From: a virus
DNA: 20,285 nt
Virus record (IMG/VR): IMGVR_UViG_3300021962_000832
Location: 1-20,285 of that record
Reading direction: 5' to 3' (one strand)
This document shows positions 10,334 to 19,685 of this stretch, piece by piece. Both the position numbers and the translations under genes were made by a program. How positions within the stretch are numbered: the stretch's first letter is position 1; every line of letters begins with the position of its first letter. Below the pieces are notes generated by a model, which saw only the letters and a program-made list of their open reading frames with translations, did no database searches and was not told the origin of the DNA.

Positions 10334-12655
10334 TTACACCCCCGGATTGATGCCACCACCGGTTGAAACGGCGTAACGATCACCTGTCATTGACTCAGCA
10401 ATCGCCAGTCGCATCGCAGTCTGGTTATCATCAGAGTTCATTTTTTCACGCATCTGCATTTCAATTGTAGCACGCTGGTTTTCCGCCTCCTGTTTGAATT
10501 TCTCAAGCTCAAGGCGCATCTGGCCTTTAAGCTGCTCAATCTCAAGCATCGGATTCTGCACCCCCGGCTGCTGTTTATACTGCTCAGCCTCCTGCACCAG
10601 AGCCTGAACCTCTGGCATAATCGGCGCAAGCGCTTGCTCAATCTGTGCTTGCGTATTCAGAATCAGCATGGTCTGCGCATCTGTATCATCTATGACCACG
10701 CCTTCCATGAGTTCGTCAGCCTTCACCACGGCCTCATGCGCCTGTGTCAGATACAGCTGGCTAATGTGCTGCAAGATGTTCTGCACAATCGCAGGTAGGG
10801 CAATTGGCCGCACAGAAGGACTCATCAGAACAGGTGACTTAACAAACGCCATATGCACCTTAATATGTCCTATGTGATCTTGTTTTGGTAGCGCCACAAA
10901 TGGCCTTCCCATCGTTGCAGCCACATTCTCAGACACAGGATCAAGGTCTTCACTGCCCGGCATGGGCTGCAAAACATCACCAGCCGGTATCTTAAGTTGT
11001 TCTAAAAATCGCTCCTCAACCTTACGCTGGTCATACAAAGCAGGGGTTGCAGCCGCACGTTGCATAAGCGCCTGAACCTGTGCAAAACGCTGTGCCTCGC
11101 TAAAAATATGCGGCTCAGACACCGGGATAACATCCACGGGGCCGTCAAAATCTTCAGGCTTTACGTCAAGCCCTGTATTCCAAAGCTCTAAAACTTCCTC
11201 ATCAACCCAAAAGTGATTGATCCGGTACAAAATACCAAGCAGGCGTCCCATTGCGTGGTGCATCCTGTGGTGTATCTCTGAAAAAACAACAGCACCCTGC
11301 TCAATAAGCGCCAAGGTGGTACCTACAGGCGCGTTCGGATTGCCGTCAGCAACCCTGTCCAGACCAACATCGACTGTTTCTTTGGCCTGCTTTACAACGT
11401 AATCAAGTAAATTTGCCAGCACCGGGGACGGCCCCGGAAATGGCAACGGCATAGCGTATTTTTTAATGTCATCTGTGACTGCACCAGCGTCAATCTGCGT
11501 TGATTGCCCCGGACGGATATCAATAGACTGCCCTGTCGGGCCACCCTTGAGTGTCAAAAATGACGGAATATTTTGGATTGCAGCGCTGTCAAGTAATGCT
11601 CGTAGCGATCCTGTCGCGCATCGCGCAAGATCACCGATAAAATGCACAAGCCCTACAGGATATGCACCCCGCCACGGCAAACAAGGCAGCTCGACAATCC
11701 AATCTAAGCGCACCTTCAGCGCATCATCCGGCTTCCAGTTTCGGTAGAGTGACAATACTTTCAAACTGGATGGATCAATTGTTATCAGATACGGCGCATC
11801 GTCGCCCTCAATATCAAGATAACATGATACCTCATACAGCTCTTTGAGGCCATCCTCAGTAAAACTTGAACGATCCGCGCCCTCAATTTTGTCAATTTCA
11901 AGCTGTGTTTCCGTCACCTCATCAAAATTTGAAGCAACCGACACGTCAACACCATAACGCTCTTTAATGTCACGGTCTGTCAACCTCAGAACGTGCGTAA
12001 TCCGTTCAGCAGAATCAAACGTACTGGTTGTAATGGGCGTAAACACATAATCAAGGGGCACATCCTCGACAACAGGACGCTTGAACCGATCCGACCAGTA
12101 CATCTTGACGTAGTGCACGCCTATAAGCCCAACCTGCGTCAGAGCCTGTCCAAGTAAAGGCCGAAACTCACTCATCTGCTCGGTGGTTTGCCAGCGCATA
12201 AGCTCGGCAACACGTTGTGCTTTCTTGATCTTTTCGTGATCCTGCTCGCCTAAAATCTTAGACTTAACCGGCCCGTTCGCAGGAAAAATCTCGCGCATAA
12301 CGCGACTGGAAAAATCAACACACGATTGAACCATAATAGGATGCGTGACGGTTGATCCGCCATCAATGCCAAGGCCGCCGGGTGCTGGCTCACCAAGGCC
12401 GGTTAGCCTCAACGCCTCAGCATACTTTTCATCTTGCGGCCTGCGTTCCTCGCGGTCTTTATCAATGTCAATCACAAGCTGTTGCGCAAGTGCGCGCAAC
12501 TTCTGCTTATCGACAGCATCAACAATGTTTTCAAAGTGTTCCCGCGCTTCGTCTGCGGTTGTATAGCCCTCGTCGTCTTCATCAAAACTAATTTCGACCA
12601 TATCCATTTCTGGTACGTCAGCGGTAAACTCAATCTCTAGTTTCTGTTCTTCCAC
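10334..12655 (-). CDS. Portal protein, 773 aa
   Basis: Large enough for a podovirus-type portal (usually 500-780 aa), with features of that family. It has an early helical region (KLRALAQQLVIDIDKDREERRPQDEKYAEALRLTG), a glycine-rich surface segment (GLGIDGGSTVTHPIMVQSCVDFSSRVMREIFPANGPVK, ~95-130), and a wing region with the strand DVPLDYVFTPITTSTFDSAERITHVLRLT. Then come crown- and stem-like helices (DLARCATGSLRALLDSAAIQNIPSFL; SPVLANLLDYVVKQAKETVDVGLDRVADGNPNAPVGTTLALIEQ). The C-terminus (~704-745) is a coiled coil (LEIEQLKGQMRLELEKFKQ), the barrel-type tail seen in P22-like portals. It lies next to the large terminase, as always. It forms the dodecameric channel through which DNA is packaged. 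Confidence 0.92.
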   Translation of the reverse strand: MEEQKLEIEFTADVPEMDMVEISFDEDDEGYTTADEAREHFENIVDAVDKQKLRALAQQLVIDIDKDREERRPQDEKYAEALRLTGLGEPAPGGLGIDGGSTVTHPIMVQSCVDFSSRVMREIFPANGPVKSKILGEQDHEKIKKAQRVAELMRWQTTEQMSEFRPLLGQALTQVGLIGVHYVKMYWSDRFKRPVVEDVPLDYVFTPITTSTFDSAERITHVLRLTDRDIKERYGVDVSVASNFDEVTETQLEIDKIEGADRSSFTEDGLKELYEVSCYLDIEGDDAPYLITIDPSSLKVLSLYRNWKPDDALKVRLDWIVELPCLPWRGAYPVGLVHFIGDLARCATGSLRALLDSAAIQNIPSFLTLKGGPTGQSIDIRPGQSTQIDAGAVTDDIKKYAMPLPFPGPSPVLANLLDYVVKQAKETVDVGLDRVADGNPNAPVGTTLALIEQGAVVFSEIHHRMHHAMGRLLGILYRINHFWVDEEVLELWNTGLDVKPEDFDGPVDVIPVSEPHIFSEAQRFAQVQALMQRAAATPALYDQRKVEERFLEQLKIPAGDVLQPMPGSEDLDPVSENVAATMGRPFVALPKQDHIGHIKVHMAFVKSPVLMSPSVRPIALPAIVQNILQHISQLYLTQAHEAVVKADELMEGVVIDDTDAQTMLILNTQAQIEQALAPIMPEVQALVQEAEQYKQQPGVQNPMLEIEQLKGQMRLELEKFKQEAENQRATIEMQMREKMNSDDNQTAMRLAIAESMTGDRYAVSTGGGINPGV

Positions 12656-14679: not shown

Positions 14680-14748
14680 TGTCAACATAATAGTGACAAT
14701 CATAGGTGCGTGCGTGCGCATTGTCAATGTACAGTTAACAATGACAAT
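14680..14748. promoter_or_regulatory. Inverted heptamer repeats flanking the late promoter (operator candidate)
   Basis: The heptamer ATTGTCA/TGACAAT occurs at 14694-14700 (+), 14720-14726 (reverse) and 14742-14748 (+), with a partial TGTCA at 14680-14684. The pairs 14680/14694 and 14720/14742 form inverted repeats with 9- and 15-bp spacers. They overlap the -35, sit between -10 and start, and lie just upstream. This spacing would suit a dimeric repressor or activator. No regulator gene is in the window, so binding is inference. The heptamer also contains part of the TTGACA -35 box, which limits significance. Confidence 0.45.
14699..14727 (-). promoter_or_regulatory. Sigma70-type promoter of the phage late operon
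   Basis: On the minus strand TTGACA (14727-14722), 17 bp, TATGAT (14704-14699): perfect -35, one mismatch -10 and ideal spacing. The start point would be near 14692, about 23 bases before the small-terminase ATG. No other equally good promoter was found in the following 14 kb, so it can drive the whole late block. The spacer (14706-14721) is an alternating GC/AC purine-pyrimidine tract. Confidence 0.85.
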
Positions 14749-15794
14749 CAACCGTTCTCGGCCTGTGCTGATTTCCATGGCCAATAAGGCCGCGCTGAAA
14801 TGCGGATTGGTGTTGGGATCGGGCGCACCGGTATCAATAATCACCAGCGTGCGGCTTGCGCTCAGGCGGTGATAGCCGCCTTGGGGCAGGGTGCGCAGCG
14901 AGCGTCCCCGGCTGTCGGCCCGGGTCAGAATGGTATCGATGGTTAACGGATCGCCCTGATTGCCGCCCTGAAAACTGGCCAAGGCACCATCGCCATGCCG
15001 CCATAATTTCAGCGCCAGCGTCATGCGGCTGATGGCGGTGGTCAGAAAGCCGGGAGGCTTTTCATGCGCGAGAGCAAAGCAATTCCGCAGATCAATCAAG
15101 CCCCGCAGCGCCAGCATGTGGCGTTCCGGATTGCGTTCATTCAGACAGCCATCACCGAGCAGGTGCCGGGTAAGGGCGGTTTCCAGCGTGTCCAGCGCAG
15201 CCTTGAGATGAAGGGATTCCGGATCGAGGCATTGCGCCGCCAGCGCCCAGCCCGTAAGGCTGACCAGCGCATCTGCGCCGGTCAAGCGCCCGGGCAACAG
15301 GCGGCTTAGATGTCGGGCCGGCGCATCATGGCGCGATAGAGGCGCTCGCGAAAGCTGTGATCGGCATTTTCCAGAAAGAAATCATGCAGTAACAGCCAAT
15401 GCCGCAATCTGAGGCCGGTGGCGACAGCGTCCCAGCCGGGTTCGGCCCAGCGTTCATAATGGTCAAGCCATTGGCTGCACAGGGTGCGGGCGCGCTTACG
15501 GGCCTGATCGCCCCCTTGGCTGCGCAGATCATGCAGCCAGCCAAAACCGTGCAGGGCGATTAACACCGCTGTGGGCTGGGGCAGATCGGGAATAAAGGGA
15601 TCGCTGTCAATTGTGATGATCCGCCCGCACAGATGATAGCGCCCGGCCAAAATATCCGCCCCGCGTGCGGGATCGCCCGGCCAAGGATCGGCAGGCGTTA
15701 CCCGCAACCGCCGCGGCATCAAGACGAGGCGCAGGCTTTGTTGATTGACGCTACGGAACAGCGCGCGGAAAGCTAAAAAACATAGTAAAATCAT
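14742..15794 (-). pseudogene. Truncated, frameshifted heparinase II/III-family gene
   Basis: Two minus-strand frames are pieces of one bacterial heparinase II/III-like protein. The first half (15794-15306) has LVLMPRRLRVTPADPWPGDPARGADILAGRYHLCG, LHGFGWLHDLRSQGGDQARKRARTL and RLRHWLLLHDFFLENADHSFRERLYRAM. The second half (about 15300-14742) has LLPGRLTGADALVSLTGWALA, HLLGDGCLNERNPERHMLALRGLIDLR, LWRHGDGALASFQGGNQGD and AMEISTGRERLIV. The frame changes between MMRRPDI-stop and HLSRLLPGRL, near 15300-15310, by loss or gain of one base. The C-terminal beta-sandwich expected after 'GRERLIVNCG' is absent. The GC-rich composition differs from both flanks. An AT-rich in-frame extension (15795-15908) is of doubtful authenticity. 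Inactive. It is either host DNA flanking a prophage or captured cargo. Confidence 0.8.
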
Positions 15795-15945: not shown

Positions 15946-15989
15946 GGTGCCCTAATTATTTTTTTGGGTCAAAAAAAAATCAATTTTGT

Positions 15990-16051
15990 GCATTTTCGCA
16001 TTGACAATCGTTTTTGACGGGGATAGATTAGGGTTATCGGACAACACAAGG
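15990..16051 (+). repeat. Promoter-leader cassette, copy 1 (62 bp)
   Basis: Matches 17018-17079 at 56 of 62 positions. The last 32 bases, from GGGATAGATTAGGG through CGGACAACACAAGG, are identical. The cassette includes a full promoter and an untranslated leader ending in a purine-rich Shine-Dalgarno-like AAGG. It places two separate short gene groups under the same control. The conserved leader ATCGGACAACA could be an operator or an RNA regulatory element. Confidence 0.85.
16001..16029 (+). promoter_or_regulatory. Sigma70-type promoter P1 of right arm
   Basis: TTGACA (16001-16006), 17 bp, TAGATT (16024-16029). Start expected near 16036, about 30 bases before the first gene. A second copy is found at 17029-17057 with identical boxes and spacing, which strongly supports real function. 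Confidence 0.85.
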
Positions 16052-16066
16052 ATGAGGATTAAAACC

Positions 16067-16288
16067 ATGACAACCAAGAGACAATATCTAGCAATCGTCC
16101 ATACATATGGGATCTGTTGTGATGAGGATGGCGCATATATCGGAGAGATATATGTGTTTGGCTCGACAAAAGAGCGTGACGATTTTGTCGATGATGGGCC
16201 TGATTATCGGAGTAGCCGTGGCTTTAGGCAAGCTATAACGCGCCGTGAGGCCATGCGCACTGCGGACGCAATTTATTGGCAGCACTAA
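16067..16288 (+). CDS. Hypothetical 73-aa protein, first gene of cassette 1
   Basis: MTTKRQYLAIVHTYGICCDE to ...FRQAITRREAMRTADAIYWQH. Mixed beta (YLAIVHTYGI; YIGEIYVFGS) then alpha (FRQAITRREAMRTADAIY), with acidic middle (KERDDFVDDGPDY). Start chosen 31 bases after the expected transcription start, with AGGA 8 bp upstream. An ATG at 16052 is possible but would leave almost no leader beyond the repeat. It ends in a TAATG overlap with the next frame. No family recognised; compact fold suggests an early-type small regulator or inhibitor, but this is speculation. Confidence 0.65.
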   Translation: MTTKRQYLAIVHTYGICCDEDGAYIGEIYVFGSTKERDDFVDDGPDYRSSRGFRQAITRREAMRTADAIYWQH

Positions 16289-16299
16289 TGAGGCAAGCC

Positions 16300-16725
16300 A
16301 TGAAAGGATCTTTGGGAATGTCCAAAAAATATCAAGATGAGTACGTTATAAATTGTAAAGGTGACGCTGTCACCGGAGATGAGATCGCCTTTGTTGAGGC
16401 GGTTTTTGAGGGATCTTATAGGAGCCCAAAATATGTGGGCGAGAGAACAATTTTTGGAAGAATCGTGAAAGATTCGTATGGTGCTGAAAAGCAACAACAT
16501 ACGTTCACGATTCTTGTGGATTTTGTTGAGGGGGCAAACAAAAAAGACGTCATTGTCGGATCAAAAATCCGGCGCAAAGGCCGTAACTTGTACGGCATAT
16601 CGACGATGCGCAAGGCATGGGTTGATGAGTCGATGCGCAAGGTGGCGCTTGCTGAAAAGCACGCGAGGGGTGGTGCGGCACGCGCCGAGCGCGACCATCG
16701 CAAGGCAGGAGGATTTTATGGTTGA
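16300..16725 (+). CDS. Hypothetical 141-aa protein
   Basis: Starts MKGSLGMSKKYQDEYVINCK. The ATG at 16300 has GAGG six bases upstream; the ATG at 16288 overlaps the previous stop (TAATG), and 16318 has AAGGA nine bases upstream, so the true start is uncertain by a few codons. A central beta-rich region (TIFGRIVKDSYGAEKQQHTFTILVDFVEG; KKDVIVGSKIRRKGRNLYGIST) precedes a basic helical tail (ESMRKVALAEKHARGGAARAERDHRKAGGFYG). The tail might bind nucleic acid. No family recognised. It overlaps the following gene by 8 bp, so translation is probably coupled. Confidence 0.65.
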   Translation: MKGSLGMSKKYQDEYVINCKGDAVTGDEIAFVEAVFEGSYRSPKYVGERTIFGRIVKDSYGAEKQQHTFTILVDFVEGANKKDVIVGSKIRRKGRNLYGISTMRKAWVDESMRKVALAEKHARGGAARAERDHRKAGGFYG

Positions 16726-17011
16726 ATTTTTTGTTATCTCAAAAGAGACATTTTTACCGATCCGGATCGTCTGTGATCCGGAAAGGGAAATAATTGACGG
16801 TAAAAATGAAAGGATTATGTCATATAATGACTACTATCAAGAGTTGTTATACAACATTGATGGTAATGACGAGTTCTTCGACGAGGAAGAGCCTGCAACC
16901 TACGGAATATCGTTGCTATTCCGTGCATTAAAAAAAATCGGAGAGTTAGAAATGGCACACTTTAGGGTAAGTGCTGCTGAAAGTACGGCCTTGTCGATAC
17001 TGGGAGGTTAA
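16718..17011 (+). CDS. Hypothetical 97-aa acidic protein with fused repeat-derived C-terminus
   Basis: The ATG at 16718 follows a perfect GGAGG with good spacing. Residues 1-78 form an acidic protein (MVEFFVISKETFLPIRIVCD, DYYQELLYNIDGNDEFFDEEEPATYG, SLLFRALKKIGELE). The final 19 residues (MAHFRVSAAESTALSILGG) are encoded by a 39-bp segment repeated at 17781-17819, where it is the start of a membrane-protein gene. An Shine-Dalgarno-like GGAG precedes the internal ATG too. So the native C-terminus is likely lost and the reading frame now runs into a truncated copy of another gene. Function unknown. Confidence 0.62.
   Translation: MVEFFVISKETFLPIRIVCDPEREIIDGKNERIMSYNDYYQELLYNIDGNDEFFDEEEPATYGISLLFRALKKIGELEMAHFRVSAAESTALSILGG
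16952..16990 (+). repeat. Direct repeat A, copy 1: 5' end of small membrane-protein gene
   Basis: 39 bp, starting ATGGCACACTTTAGGGTAAG, matching 17781-17819 at most positions, with differences mainly at third codon positions. It encodes MAHFRVSAAES here and MTHFRVSAAES there. Third-base bias suggests both copies were coding for some time after duplication. After ~13 codons the sequences diverge fully. Confidence 0.8.
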
Positions 17012-17017
17012 ACTGAT

Positions 17018-17079
17018 GCATTTTTGTATTGACAATCGTTCTTGGTTGGGATAGATTAGGGTTATCGGACAACACAAGG
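17018..17079 (+). repeat. Promoter-leader cassette, copy 2 (62 bp)
   Basis: The second copy of the element at 15990-16051 (56/62 identical). It begins 7 bases after the stop of the 97-aa gene and ends directly before the next gene's Shine-Dalgarno region. Most differences lie in the spacer and upstream of -35, while both promoter boxes and the entire leader are conserved. This pattern points to selection on promoter boxes and leader. Confidence 0.85.
17029..17057 (+). promoter_or_regulatory. Sigma70-type promoter P2 of right arm
   Basis: TTGACA (17029-17034), 17 bp, TAGATT (17052-17057), the same boxes and spacing as at 16001-16029. Start expected near 17064, ~26 bases before the ATG at 17090. 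Confidence 0.85.
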
Positions 17080-17089
17080 GGTACGGATT

Positions 17090-17353
17090 ATGAGTACAAA
17101 AGAACAGATTGACTTAACGTACCGGCACGATGGTTTTTGGATAAAATTCTTCCCTGTGAGCGATGCGGGGGTGGGTTTGTACGAGTCAATGCTGATGGCT
17201 GGGAATGAAGCCGTTTTGACGATACATGCTGATGCATTTATCCGTGCTTTACGAAAGTCTGGCTACGTTGTCAGGCGATCAAAAGAGCCATCGTCCAAGT
17301 CATTAGAGTGGACCTCAGAAGACGAGGCTTTACTCTCAGCTTTAAACGTATAA
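17090..17353 (+). CDS. Hypothetical 87-aa protein, first gene of cassette 2
   Basis: MSTKEQIDLTYRHDGFWIKF ... ADAFIRALRKSGYVVRRSKE ... WTSEDEALLSALNV. The Shine-Dalgarno AAGGGG lies eight bases before the ATG. The predicted order is beta-beta-alpha (HDGFWIKFFPVS; EAVLTIHADAFIRALRKSGYVVRR), then a short polar tail. It has no detectable similarity to the first gene of cassette 1 despite the same promoter. No family recognised. Confidence 0.65.
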   Translation: MSTKEQIDLTYRHDGFWIKFFPVSDAGVGLYESMLMAGNEAVLTIHADAFIRALRKSGYVVRRSKEPSSKSLEWTSEDEALLSALNV

Positions 17354-17368
17354 TCAGGGGCAACGACT

Positions 17369-17794
17369 ATGACAAACAGAAAAACCTTACACCAAGTTGC
17401 ACACGCAATTTGGAATGGCTGTGCGTTGCCAAAAGATTATGAAAACTTATGTAGAGTTGTTAAAATTATTTTGAAAGAGGAACGATACAATCACATTTGT
17501 GAGAGTCATTCTGAAAAAATAGCCCAAATGATTCAAGAATTGAGATGTAAAATTGATATTAGGACTCATGGATACTCTTTTGGGAGTTACGGGATGGTTC
17601 CTGATTCGGCCAGAAAAGGGAACCAATTGAAATGTTTGGATGATCCATTAGTTATTCGGAAAAGTTTAAGAATGTTACCGAAATATGTGTGGTTTGGAAT
17701 ATTACAAACCAGACGTGAGGAAAAAAAATCAGGAGCTCAAGTCGGGGACGCCAGAGCCGTAGGTTGGGTGGAGGATGAAAATGACACACTTTAG
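17369..17794 (+). CDS. Hypothetical 141-aa protein, AT-rich
   Basis: MTNRKTLHQVAHAIWNGCAL; then KDYENLCRVVKIILKEERYNHICESHSEKIAQMIQELRC (two helices), a loop (THGYSFGSYGMVPDSARKG), DPLVIRKSLRMLPKYVWFGIL and a charged C-terminus (VGWVEDENDTL). Base composition is clearly more AT-rich than the adjoining genes, consistent with separate acquisition. GGGG precedes the ATG at 9 bp. It overlaps the start of the membrane protein gene by 14 bp. No family recognised; possible helical DNA-binding or toxin-like protein, unproven. Confidence 0.6.
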   Translation: MTNRKTLHQVAHAIWNGCALPKDYENLCRVVKIILKEERYNHICESHSEKIAQMIQELRCKIDIRTHGYSFGSYGMVPDSARKGNQLKCLDDPLVIRKSLRMLPKYVWFGILQTRREEKKSGAQVGDARAVGWVEDENDTL

Positions 17795-17819
17795 GGTGAG
17801 TGCTGCTGAAAGTGCAGCA
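17781..17819 (+). repeat. Direct repeat A, copy 2
   Basis: The intact-gene copy of the 39-bp element at 16952-16990. It contains the ATG and first 13 codons of the 55-aa membrane protein, so this copy is likely the source and 16952-16990 the truncated one. Confidence 0.8.
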
Positions 17820-17948
17820 TGGTTTGCGCACCGGCGGGCCGCTCGGCGTCGGATGTTTTGGGCGATGCTGATTGACGGCATCGTGATCTGGACACTGTTT
17901 GTTATGATGTCCGGACTAATGATTTTTTGTTGGGCGGTGTGGGGATGA
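17781..17948 (+). CDS. Small single-span membrane protein, 55 aa
   Basis: MTHFRVSAAESAAWFAHRRA-ARRRMF followed by one long hydrophobic span (FWAMLIDGIVIWTLFVMMSG-LMIFCWAVWG, ~26-55). Positive charges (HRRAARRR) lie directly before the span, so the N-terminus is predicted cytoplasmic. GGAGG lies six bases upstream of the ATG. The first ~13 codons are duplicated at 16952-16990 (repeat A). The stop TGA overlaps the two ATGs of the next gene. The small size, and a promoter cassette nearby, would suit a holin-like, membrane-toxin or superinfection-exclusion peptide, but there is no motif to select among these. Confidence 0.65.
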   Translation: MTHFRVSAAESAAWFAHRRAARRRMFWAMLIDGIVIWTLFVMMSGLMIFCWAVWG

Positions 17949-18181
17949 TGGACAAATTATCCGGGCTGAATGACCTTGATCGTTATGATCTGATTGAGGA
18001 TTTTGAGAGGATGAACCCGGATTGTGTGTACTCCACTCCTAATGAGATTAACGCCCGACGCGTTGCTCAGAAATTGGATCGGAAGAACACGAAACGTGAG
18101 AAACGTGAAAAGAGGAATCGGAAAAATGAAAAAAATCATCACCGGCCCAACGGGGTCTGGAAAAACATATCAGGCCATTAG
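17945..18181 (+). CDS. Hypothetical 78-aa protein with very basic C-terminus
   Basis: MMDKLSGLNDLDRYDLIEDFERMNPDCVYSTPNEINARRVAQKLDRK... followed by a Lys/Arg/Asn tract (KREKREKRNRKNEKN). The ATG overlaps the previous stop (ATGATGG), so translation is coupled. The 5' half is a plausible acidic helical protein. The last ~19 codons run over the start and Walker-A region of the helicase fragment in another frame, a 56-bp overlap that is long for a true gene pair. The C-terminus may be an artefact of a lost stop. A short direct repeat GAAACGTGA x2 lies in the basic part. Function unknown. Confidence 0.5.
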   Translation: MMDKLSGLNDLDRYDLIEDFERMNPDCVYSTPNEINARRVAQKLDRKNTKREKREKRNRKNEKNHHRPNGVWKNISGH

Positions 18182-19153
18182 CCGGGCGCGGGCCTTGGGC
18201 CGGTTTGCGTATGCAGCGCCGTGCAGGCTGCTGGCATACGAAAGTTTCATAAAATATGCGGGGCCAAGTGATCGTCTGGAGACGGGCGGTGCCCAAGTTA
18301 TTCTTGGACGTGGCAGTCTGTTTACCTGCTTTTCCGGGATCAACCCGGATCATATCCGGCAAGGCCGATCGAAGAATTTAACATTAAGCGTATCGGATAC
18401 CTAGATGCGCTTGTCCGGATGCGATCAGGGGTATCAACCCTGATAATCGCCTCATCCATTAAGGATGCCGATTGGTTTTCTACAAAATACGAAGCATCTC
18501 TAATAACCAGAGAGTTTTCGGAGTATCATATTTTTAAGACAATGATTGATTTTCAGGAGGGGAAAATCAACCGTTTGGTGTCAACTAATATCGCCGCACA
18601 AGGGCTCAATTTACCTTGTGAGAATCTGATTCTCCATCTCAATAATTGGGATGGAAAAAAGGATATTTGCCAGAAAATTGGGCGTCTTGGACGCCCCTTT
18701 ATGGGCAAAAATGACATAGCTCTGACTGTGTCATATCATTGTGATATGGATAGTTATGACGCCTCATATCACAGCGCGACAGAAAAACGTCTGGATGCTT
18801 GGGACAACCGGCTGGTTGTCGAGAGAATTGTACAACCGGGCGGTGATCTGGCGCACTGGAGGGTCAACCTTGACCATGTGCCAGAGCCTGACAAAGATTA
18901 TCAGGAGCCGGGGCGTGACCGGGGTTGCGAGCTGCTGATTTACAAACAGCTCAAAAAAAGATGGCGTGCGGAAGCCGAGGCCATGAATAATGAAATTATC
19001 AGGTTGGTAAACAAACCTGAAGTAACGGCCAGTGAAGCGCGTGAACGCATCCCTGAAGCCATGTGGCGGTGGATGATGGACGAGGAGGACATGACCGAGA
19101 GTGAGGTTATGGAAAAGAGGATTGCAACCGGTGATAGGTATTATCCGGTTTGA
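18126..19153 (+). pseudogene. Decayed SF2 helicase (two frames, motif II missing)
   Basis: First frame (18126-18404) begins MKKIITGPTGSGKTYQAISR, a perfect Walker A/motif I, then a motif-Ia-like GRFAYAAPCRLLAYESFIKYAG. Second frame is open from before 18359 (ARPIEEFNIKRIGYLDALVRMRSG), with STLIIASSIKDADWF resembling motif IV, NRLVSTNIAAQGLNLPCENLIL matching motif V and DICQKIGRLGRPF matching motif VI. No DEAD/DExH box or SAT motif lies between. The joined protein would be ~340 aa, so about 80-100 residues around motif II appear deleted and a frameshift follows near 18355-18370. The C-terminal part (DHVPEPDKDYQEP; KRWRAEAEAMNNEIIRLVNK; WRWMMDEEDMTESEVM) is family-specific. As a helicase it must be inactive. 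GAGGA precedes the ATG. Not a programmed frameshift: no slippery site. Confidence 0.75.
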
Positions 19154-19251: not shown

Positions 19252-19389
19252 ATGAAAAAATCTAAGCTCAAAACCGCCGAGGTGAAGGGTGCAGCAGTCG
19301 AGGAACAGCGTATTTTTCACGCATTTTCTGCACCCAAAAATGCAAGAACCCCCTTTTTTATCAGGGGGTTATGCAGTGATCCATTCTAG
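19252..19389 (+). CDS. Hypothetical 45-aa protein, possibly a remnant
   Basis: ATG with GGAGA at 6-9 bp upstream; MKKSKLKTAEVKGAAVEEQR, then IFHAFSAPKNARTPFFIRGL and CSDPF-stop. The first 20 residues look like a genuine polar helix. The final part is coded across a strong stem-loop (19341-19375) and its stop lies in the first copy of repeat B (19383-19418). So the 3' end may be shaped by rearrangement. No family recognised. Confidence 0.45.
   Translation: MKKSKLKTAEVKGAAVEEQRIFHAFSAPKNARTPFFIRGLCSDPF
19341..19375 (+). other. Stem-loop within the 45-aa frame
   Basis: AACCCCCT (19347-19354) pairs with AGGGGGTT (19363-19370) over an 8-base T-rich loop. TGCA (19341-19344 and 19372-19375) extends the stem across a bulge. 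No T-run follows on either strand, so it is not a standard terminator. It could be a regulatory hairpin or a hairpin-end remnant of a small mobile sequence. Confidence 0.55.
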
Positions 19390-19418
19390 CAATAAGGGAT
19401 CAGTGGGTCAACCGTAAC
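19383..19418 (+). repeat. Direct repeat B, copy 1 (36 bp)
   Basis: Matches 19449-19484 with one mismatch in 36 bp. The two copies are 66 bp apart, exactly 22 codons, and are in the same frame. This copy lies before the ATG of the 79-aa gene, coding in frame ILAIRDQWVNRN but with no start codon of its own (a TGA sits just upstream). It is a truncated duplicate of the gene start. Confidence 0.85.
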
Positions 19419-19445: not shown

Positions 19446-19685
19446 ATGATTCTAGCAATAAGGGATCAGTGGGTCAAGCGTAACGAGTCAGAATTTGTGG
19501 ATAAGGTGCGATTGCGCCGAGCAATCTTAAGGTGCGATGATAATATCGCGGTATGGTGCGATCCACCGAAACAACCTATTCTAACTTTTGATGAGGACGG
19601 AGATGTTGCTGAGGCCCAATACCCTGAATTGACTCCCGATGAGGAGTTTGAGGCGTGCTGCCACTGGGTGGCGAAGGAGGATTGA
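19446..19685 (+). CDS. Hypothetical 79-aa acidic protein
   Basis: MILAIRDQWVKRNESEFVDK; VRLRRAILRCDDNIAVWCDPPKQPILTFDED; ending DEEFEACCHWVAKED. There are four Cys (…RCDD, WCDP, ACCHW) but not in a zinc-finger pattern. The start is the only ATG that keeps the frame after an upstream TGA; the ribosome site is poor (GAAACA). The 5' end is repeated 66 bp upstream (repeat B). A hydrophilic, helix-rich small protein; no family recognised. Confidence 0.6.
   Translation: MILAIRDQWVKRNESEFVDKVRLRRAILRCDDNIAVWCDPPKQPILTFDEDGDVAEAQYPELTPDEEFEACCHWVAKED
19449..19484 (+). repeat. Direct repeat B, copy 2, at start of the 79-aa gene
   Basis: Codons 2-13 of the 79-aa protein (ILAIRDQWVKRN). The near-perfect upstream copy at 19383-19418 implies recent tandem duplication of a 66-bp unit or a replacement of the gene's upstream region. 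Confidence 0.85.

Follow-up and report, generated by a model that had tools for sequence, protein, structure and literature searches.

The window analysed here is an entire virus record of 20,285 bp, which is probably a fragment of a phage genome. Its leftward genes encode a terminase, a portal, a GroES-like protein, a capsid and adaptor proteins. Among phage records, the closest portal was that of Caulobacter phage RW (41% over 97% of the length), followed by those of the Manatee Spring uncultured phage ctpbd312, of Roseobacter phages CRP-901 and CRP-902 and of pelagiphage HTVC023P. In phage RW the structural genes (portal, terminase, GroES, capsid) follow each other in the same order and, as in the window, a set of small genes diverges from them on the other strand. 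On gene content and gene order, which are as in RW, the window can be described as that of a Riverwalkvirus-like podovirus, a term used here for likeness and not for membership of a genus.

Two damaged genes were observed outside the region described below. Between the packaging and the small-gene arms (14770-15790, minus strand) lies part of a heparinase II/III gene of alphaproteobacterial type. It is GC-rich (0.62 compared with about 0.48), has one frameshift near 15300 and lacks its C-terminal end; it is either host DNA acquired by the phage or an assembly join. At 18126-19153, a Suv3-like helicase is present as two pieces in different frames, with the P-loop and helicase C parts but not the middle part that bears the DExx motif. 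Similarity searches confirmed no relatives for the helicase half or for the heparinase fragment. Strain mixing or decay may account for both.

The small-gene arm contains a repeated promoter-like element, called element P. The features of this arm, and one site of the leftward arm, are as follows.

14699-14727, minus strand: promoter-like site of the packaging and structural arm, TTGACA-17-TATGAT, which has TTGACAAT in common with element P
15989-16051, plus strand: element P, copy 1, promoter-like boxes and leader to AAGG, first copy of a 63-nt direct repeat
16001-16029, plus strand: boxes of copy 1, -35 TTGACA (16001-16006), 17-nt spacer, -10 TAGATT (16024-16029)
16020-16051, plus strand: perfect 32-nt core in copy 1 (17048-17079 in copy 2), from the -10 box through the leader
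16067-16288, plus strand: g1, 73 aa, first gene past copy 1, no relatives found
16300-16725, plus strand: g2, 141 aa, DUF7699 (Pfam PF24766, E=2e-21)
16718-17011, plus strand: g3, 97 aa, the last ~20 codons of which are a truncated copy of the start of g6
16950-16984, plus strand: g6' remnant, right end of unit 1
17017-17079, plus strand: element P, copy 2, second copy of the 63-nt direct repeat
17029-17057, plus strand: boxes of copy 2, -35 TTGACA (17029-17034), 17-nt spacer, -10 TAGATT (17052-17057)
17090-17353, plus strand: g4, 87 aa, first gene past copy 2, unrelated to g1, no relatives found
17369-17794, plus strand: g5, 141 aa, no family found
17775-17948, plus strand: g6, 57 aa, contains a hydrophobic stretch; both units have its first codons as their right end

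The two copies of element P are direct repeats with a spacing of 1028 nt and are identical at 57 of 63 positions (90%). In each of them the boxes match the consensus at 10 of 12 positions, and the -35 box is kept together with TTGACAATCGTT. The core, GGGATAGATTAGGGTTATCGGACAACACAAGG, starts just 5' of the -10 box and ends in AAGG, within the ribosome-binding site; past AAGG the copies diverge by a short indel, then the genes start and the homology ends. Dinucleotide shuffles of the window gave no match to the 51-nt pattern of P, and the best non-self matches in the window were 27/51 for this pattern and 18/32 for the 32-nt core; therefore, the window holds exactly two copies, no third or weaker one being found in it by these searches. 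Both are counted within the 4.3 kb of small-gene arm that the fragment contains. No homologue of P was found in phage records, viral contigs or bacterial genomes with exact core sequences of 30, 20 or 19 nt, or by BLASTN of phages.

P has no convincing palindrome. The leader as a structured RNA was considered and rejected, as it was predicted to be unstructured in both copies. No rightward terminator-like site was found before copy 2, near 16,950-17,020, where the upstream fold energy was that of the background. The sequence TTGACAAT occurs four times in the window (14720, 15877, 16001 and 17029), in all cases within control regions and preceded by an A, which makes it a near-palindrome, ATTGACAAT; one of these sites is the -35 box of the leftward arm. 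As an operator common to both arms it would have these four sites, but 6 of 100 shuffles reached four, and the sites include the -35 consensus.

The genes that follow the two copies are different. No significant similarity between g1 and g4 was detected by BLASTP, and they have no common family, which bears out the claim of the earlier note that a duplicated promoter-leader cassette stands ahead of unrelated genes. The first residues of the two proteins are alike (MTTKRQ and MSTKEQ); the shared part may reach a few codons into the gene, or this may be chance. Only g2 has a recognisable domain, and its relatives are found in two viral contigs (55-57%) from which element P is absent. Searches with PADLOC, Pfam and PHROG gave no significant match for g1, g4, g5 or g6; with the PADLOC defence and counter-defence families there was none for g1 to g4 or g6, and one weak match for g5 (E=0.03). 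Similarity search confirmed no relatives of g4. Single-sequence structure models of g1 and g4 (mean pLDDT 58 and 63) were too poor for a fold search. The suggestion that such genes code for defence or host-takeover factors thus found no support in these families and is at most a guess.

A second repeat, missed by the first reading of the sequence, lies at the other end of the units: positions 16950-16984 and 17779-17813 are identical at 33 of 35 positions. The second of these lies at the start of g6. The first is a copy of that start, which forms the in-frame end of g3 and breaks off just before promoter copy 2. The region is therefore laid out as P-g1-g2-g3-g6' followed by P-g4-g5-g6, that is, two differing sets of genes between common left and right ends. 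The ends are 90-94% alike and the interiors show no significant similarity of DNA or protein, which is the expected signature of gene sets brought together between common ends.

The reading that we consider fairly probable is that P is a promoter of the host sigma-70 type, with a leader and a ribosome-binding site, and that two small-gene operons were joined by recombination at their P and g6 ends. Judged by its boxes, P would be read by the host RNA polymerase, and the leader would be the 5' part of the transcript. Both copies would be situated in an early region, as far as position indicates, of a Riverwalkvirus-like podovirus, each driving a few small, unrelated genes as a short operon. The two units have common ends, the promoter-leader on the left and the start of g6 on the right. 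Recombination would take place between phages that differ in the genes behind a shared promoter, and one gene set would have been added beside the other and not in its place, an addition that would have truncated the first copy of g6. The promoter-leader would in this way serve both as control signal and as homologous join for the gain of small genes. Since the leader is predicted to be unstructured and no terminator was found between the units, transcription from copy 1 is likely to continue into unit 2, where copy 2 would boost it. Since the g6' remnant is in frame within g3, part of it may have been retained for some other reason.

The same layout could have arisen by a plain tandem duplication of the promoter and the genes, after which the genes diverged or were partly deleted while selection maintained the promoter and the start of g6, with no acquisition of genes. 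The order P to g6 followed by P to g6 fits such an event, as do the likenesses of the P copies (90%) and of the g6 starts (94%). However, the interiors differ in gene number and in length (about 900 compared with 700 nt) and have no significant similarity, whereas the ends, which would be equally old, are still at least 90% identical; in addition, g2 belongs to an independent family, DUF7699, that is unrelated to g4 and g5. We regard a simple duplication as unlikely.

The related phages were analysed by comparing the regions upstream of genes within each phage, with shuffled controls. In phage RW, a repeated element, GCAACtnAGcGcTTGCAA, was found, the best pairs of which were identical at 23 of 26 positions, whereas shuffles reached no more than 20. 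With a profile of this element, 11 sites were detected, each upstream of a gene on the same strand, at 35-104 nt and in one case at 298 nt; three of the 11 were absent from the set used to build the profile, and the count for RW is given as at least 11. The first genes behind the sites have no mutual similarity (the leftward gene at 2792 was left out), and two copies lie within the terminal repeat. The RW element contains a palindrome, GCAAC..TTGCAA. From the sequence, TTGCAA could act as a -35 box in several copies, with a -10 box of GCTA type about 17 nt further on; the copies at 11926 and 21344 lie too close to the start codon for a -35/-10 reading, and for them an operator role is as likely. 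Separately from the question of the window, this palindromic promoter- or operator-like element before at least 11 different small genes makes up a candidate phage regulon, which the paper on RW does not mention; the word 'promoter' is absent from the papers that describe RW and CRP-901 (PMC11053796, PMC10149686). The Manatee Spring phage had one repeated pair (22/26, compared with at most 18 in shuffles), and HTVC023P and DSL-LC04 had no repeated upstream element exceeding the shuffles.

In Roseobacter phage CRP-901, the element is TTGTAATCTGTGACAnnTGTCAC, behind which a TATATA-like sequence and then a polypurine leader are found. Five copies, identical at up to 25 of 26 positions, precede five genes; the element contains the palindrome GTGACA..TGTCAC, and a terminator-like hairpin lies directly before three of the four rightward copies. 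Exact matches to it were found in 33 viral contigs, many of which have two or three copies. CRP-901-type marine phages carry a putative terminator-promoter-operator-leader cassette, and in 35 sequences of this type 84 copies stood before 16 unrelated gene families, with 22 different adjacent successions (families by single linkage at E 1e-4; F03 mixes two lengths). Family F01 was followed by F03, F04, F06 or F13, and five families were found before F02; F03-F05 in one contig is F05-F03 in another, and the order is F01-F04-F06-F02 in CRP-901 compared with F01-F06-F03-F02 in CRP-902. Cassettes before the same family in different contigs were 81% identical, compared with 69% before different families in the same contig and 70% at unrelated places; therefore, cassette and gene normally move together, and the cassette copies of one genome are not homogenised. 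The 90% likeness of the two copies in the window suggests a more recent duplication or join.

The modular early-gene array proposed in the earlier note is upheld as to its modularity: both units of the window end in the 5' sequence of g6, RW and CRP-901 have the same layout, and the genes of CRP-901-type phages have been exchanged and reordered. Gene shuffling behind a common control element was observed in these relatives; for the phage of the window we infer it, together with recombination as its route.

The palindromes of the RW and CRP-901 elements bear on another explanation, in which P would act mainly after transcription or in translation, or as the operator of a phage regulator, and the promoter boxes would be secondary. 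The longest perfect stretch of P does cover the -10 box and the leader up to the ribosome-binding site and is not at the -35 box or the spacer, and cluster K mycobacteriophages have start-associated sequences of unknown action (PMC3203893). Against this, the leader has no predicted structure in either copy and P no convincing palindrome of its own, whereas the -35 box with TTGACAATCGTT is conserved as well and the boxes and their spacing are good in both copies; such a role is quite unlikely as the main one. Finally, an assembly artefact joining the early regions of two strains in a metagenomic contig, to which the probable fragment state of the record, the GC-rich host-type heparinase fragment inside it and the helicase split in two frames without its middle would lend themselves, is very doubtful, as the copies differ at 6 of 63 positions and so are not one k-mer path that was collapsed or duplicated, as their flanks are unique and as the same type of layout is found in the isolate genomes of RW and CRP-901.

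The reading of P as a promoter-leader and homologous join can be compared with known systems. Mobile regulatory cassettes of T4-type phages, called PeSLs, were reportedly described by Arbiol et al. in 2010 and by Comeau et al. in 2014. They are promoter-plus-stem-loop cassettes that mediate the shuffling of small genes, according to the statement cited in PMC4503421. The window also has a repeated promoter-like element between unrelated small genes, proposed here as the join for shuffling, but in PeSLs the promoter is paired with a stem-loop, whereas no stem-loop terminator precedes copy 2, and the sequence and the phage group are unrelated to those of T4-type PeSLs. The CRP-901 cassettes are closer to PeSLs, in that three of the four rightward copies follow a terminator-like hairpin and that different genes stand behind the cassette in different phages.

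In cluster K mycobacteriophages, a 13-bp signal, the start-associated sequence (SAS), is repeated at the starts of genes from different families, just upstream of them; the ESAS adds an inverted repeat whose consensus is lineage-specific (PMC3203893). P is likewise a short repeat just upstream of genes from different families, but it has full promoter boxes and a leader. No GGGATAGGAGCCC-like 13-mer lies immediately upstream of the gene starts; the core of P begins with GGGATAG but goes on with ATTAGGG, and it is located at the -10 box, some 40-47 nt upstream of the start codon. The elements of RW and of CRP-901/902 belong to the same phage group and layout as P, as lineage-specific repeats before unrelated small genes. 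They differ from it in having entirely other sequences, palindromic operator-like parts and more copies (at least 11 in RW, five in CRP-901); the elements of the window, RW and CRP-901 are all unrelated in sequence to each other. P belongs neither to the PeSLs nor to the SAS; it adds a new case to a style of phage genome construction that is already known. The view that the region holds an undescribed system was not borne out, promoter cassettes that mediate shuffling having already been described for T4-type phages, in so far as the citing statement in PMC4503421 goes.

More tentatively, and with somewhat less than an even chance of being right, podoviruses of Alphaproteobacteria (the Riverwalk/CRP-901 group and relatives) would build their small-gene arm from promoter-plus-gene modules, with a lineage-specific cassette as the homologous join, and the window would represent a further lineage. 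In the Riverwalk/CRP-901 group, each module might consist of one lineage-specific promoter, often with an operator and a terminator, plus one or a few genes. Phages keep many small genes that have no known function. If early arms are made of promoter-plus-gene modules joined by a repeat, a search with the cassette would reveal the small genes behind it; such a design, if true, would also account for the arrival of genes already equipped with regulation. The module idea becomes testable in cultured phages through the CRP-901-type data, with 16 families behind one cassette in several orders.

At the far end of the window, a 36-bp direct repeat was observed at 19383-19418 and 19449-19484 (97%, 66 bp apart). 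On the minus strand it reads as TTGACC-17-TAGAAT with TG ahead of the -10 box, and it may be a further duplicated promoter or belong to an origin.
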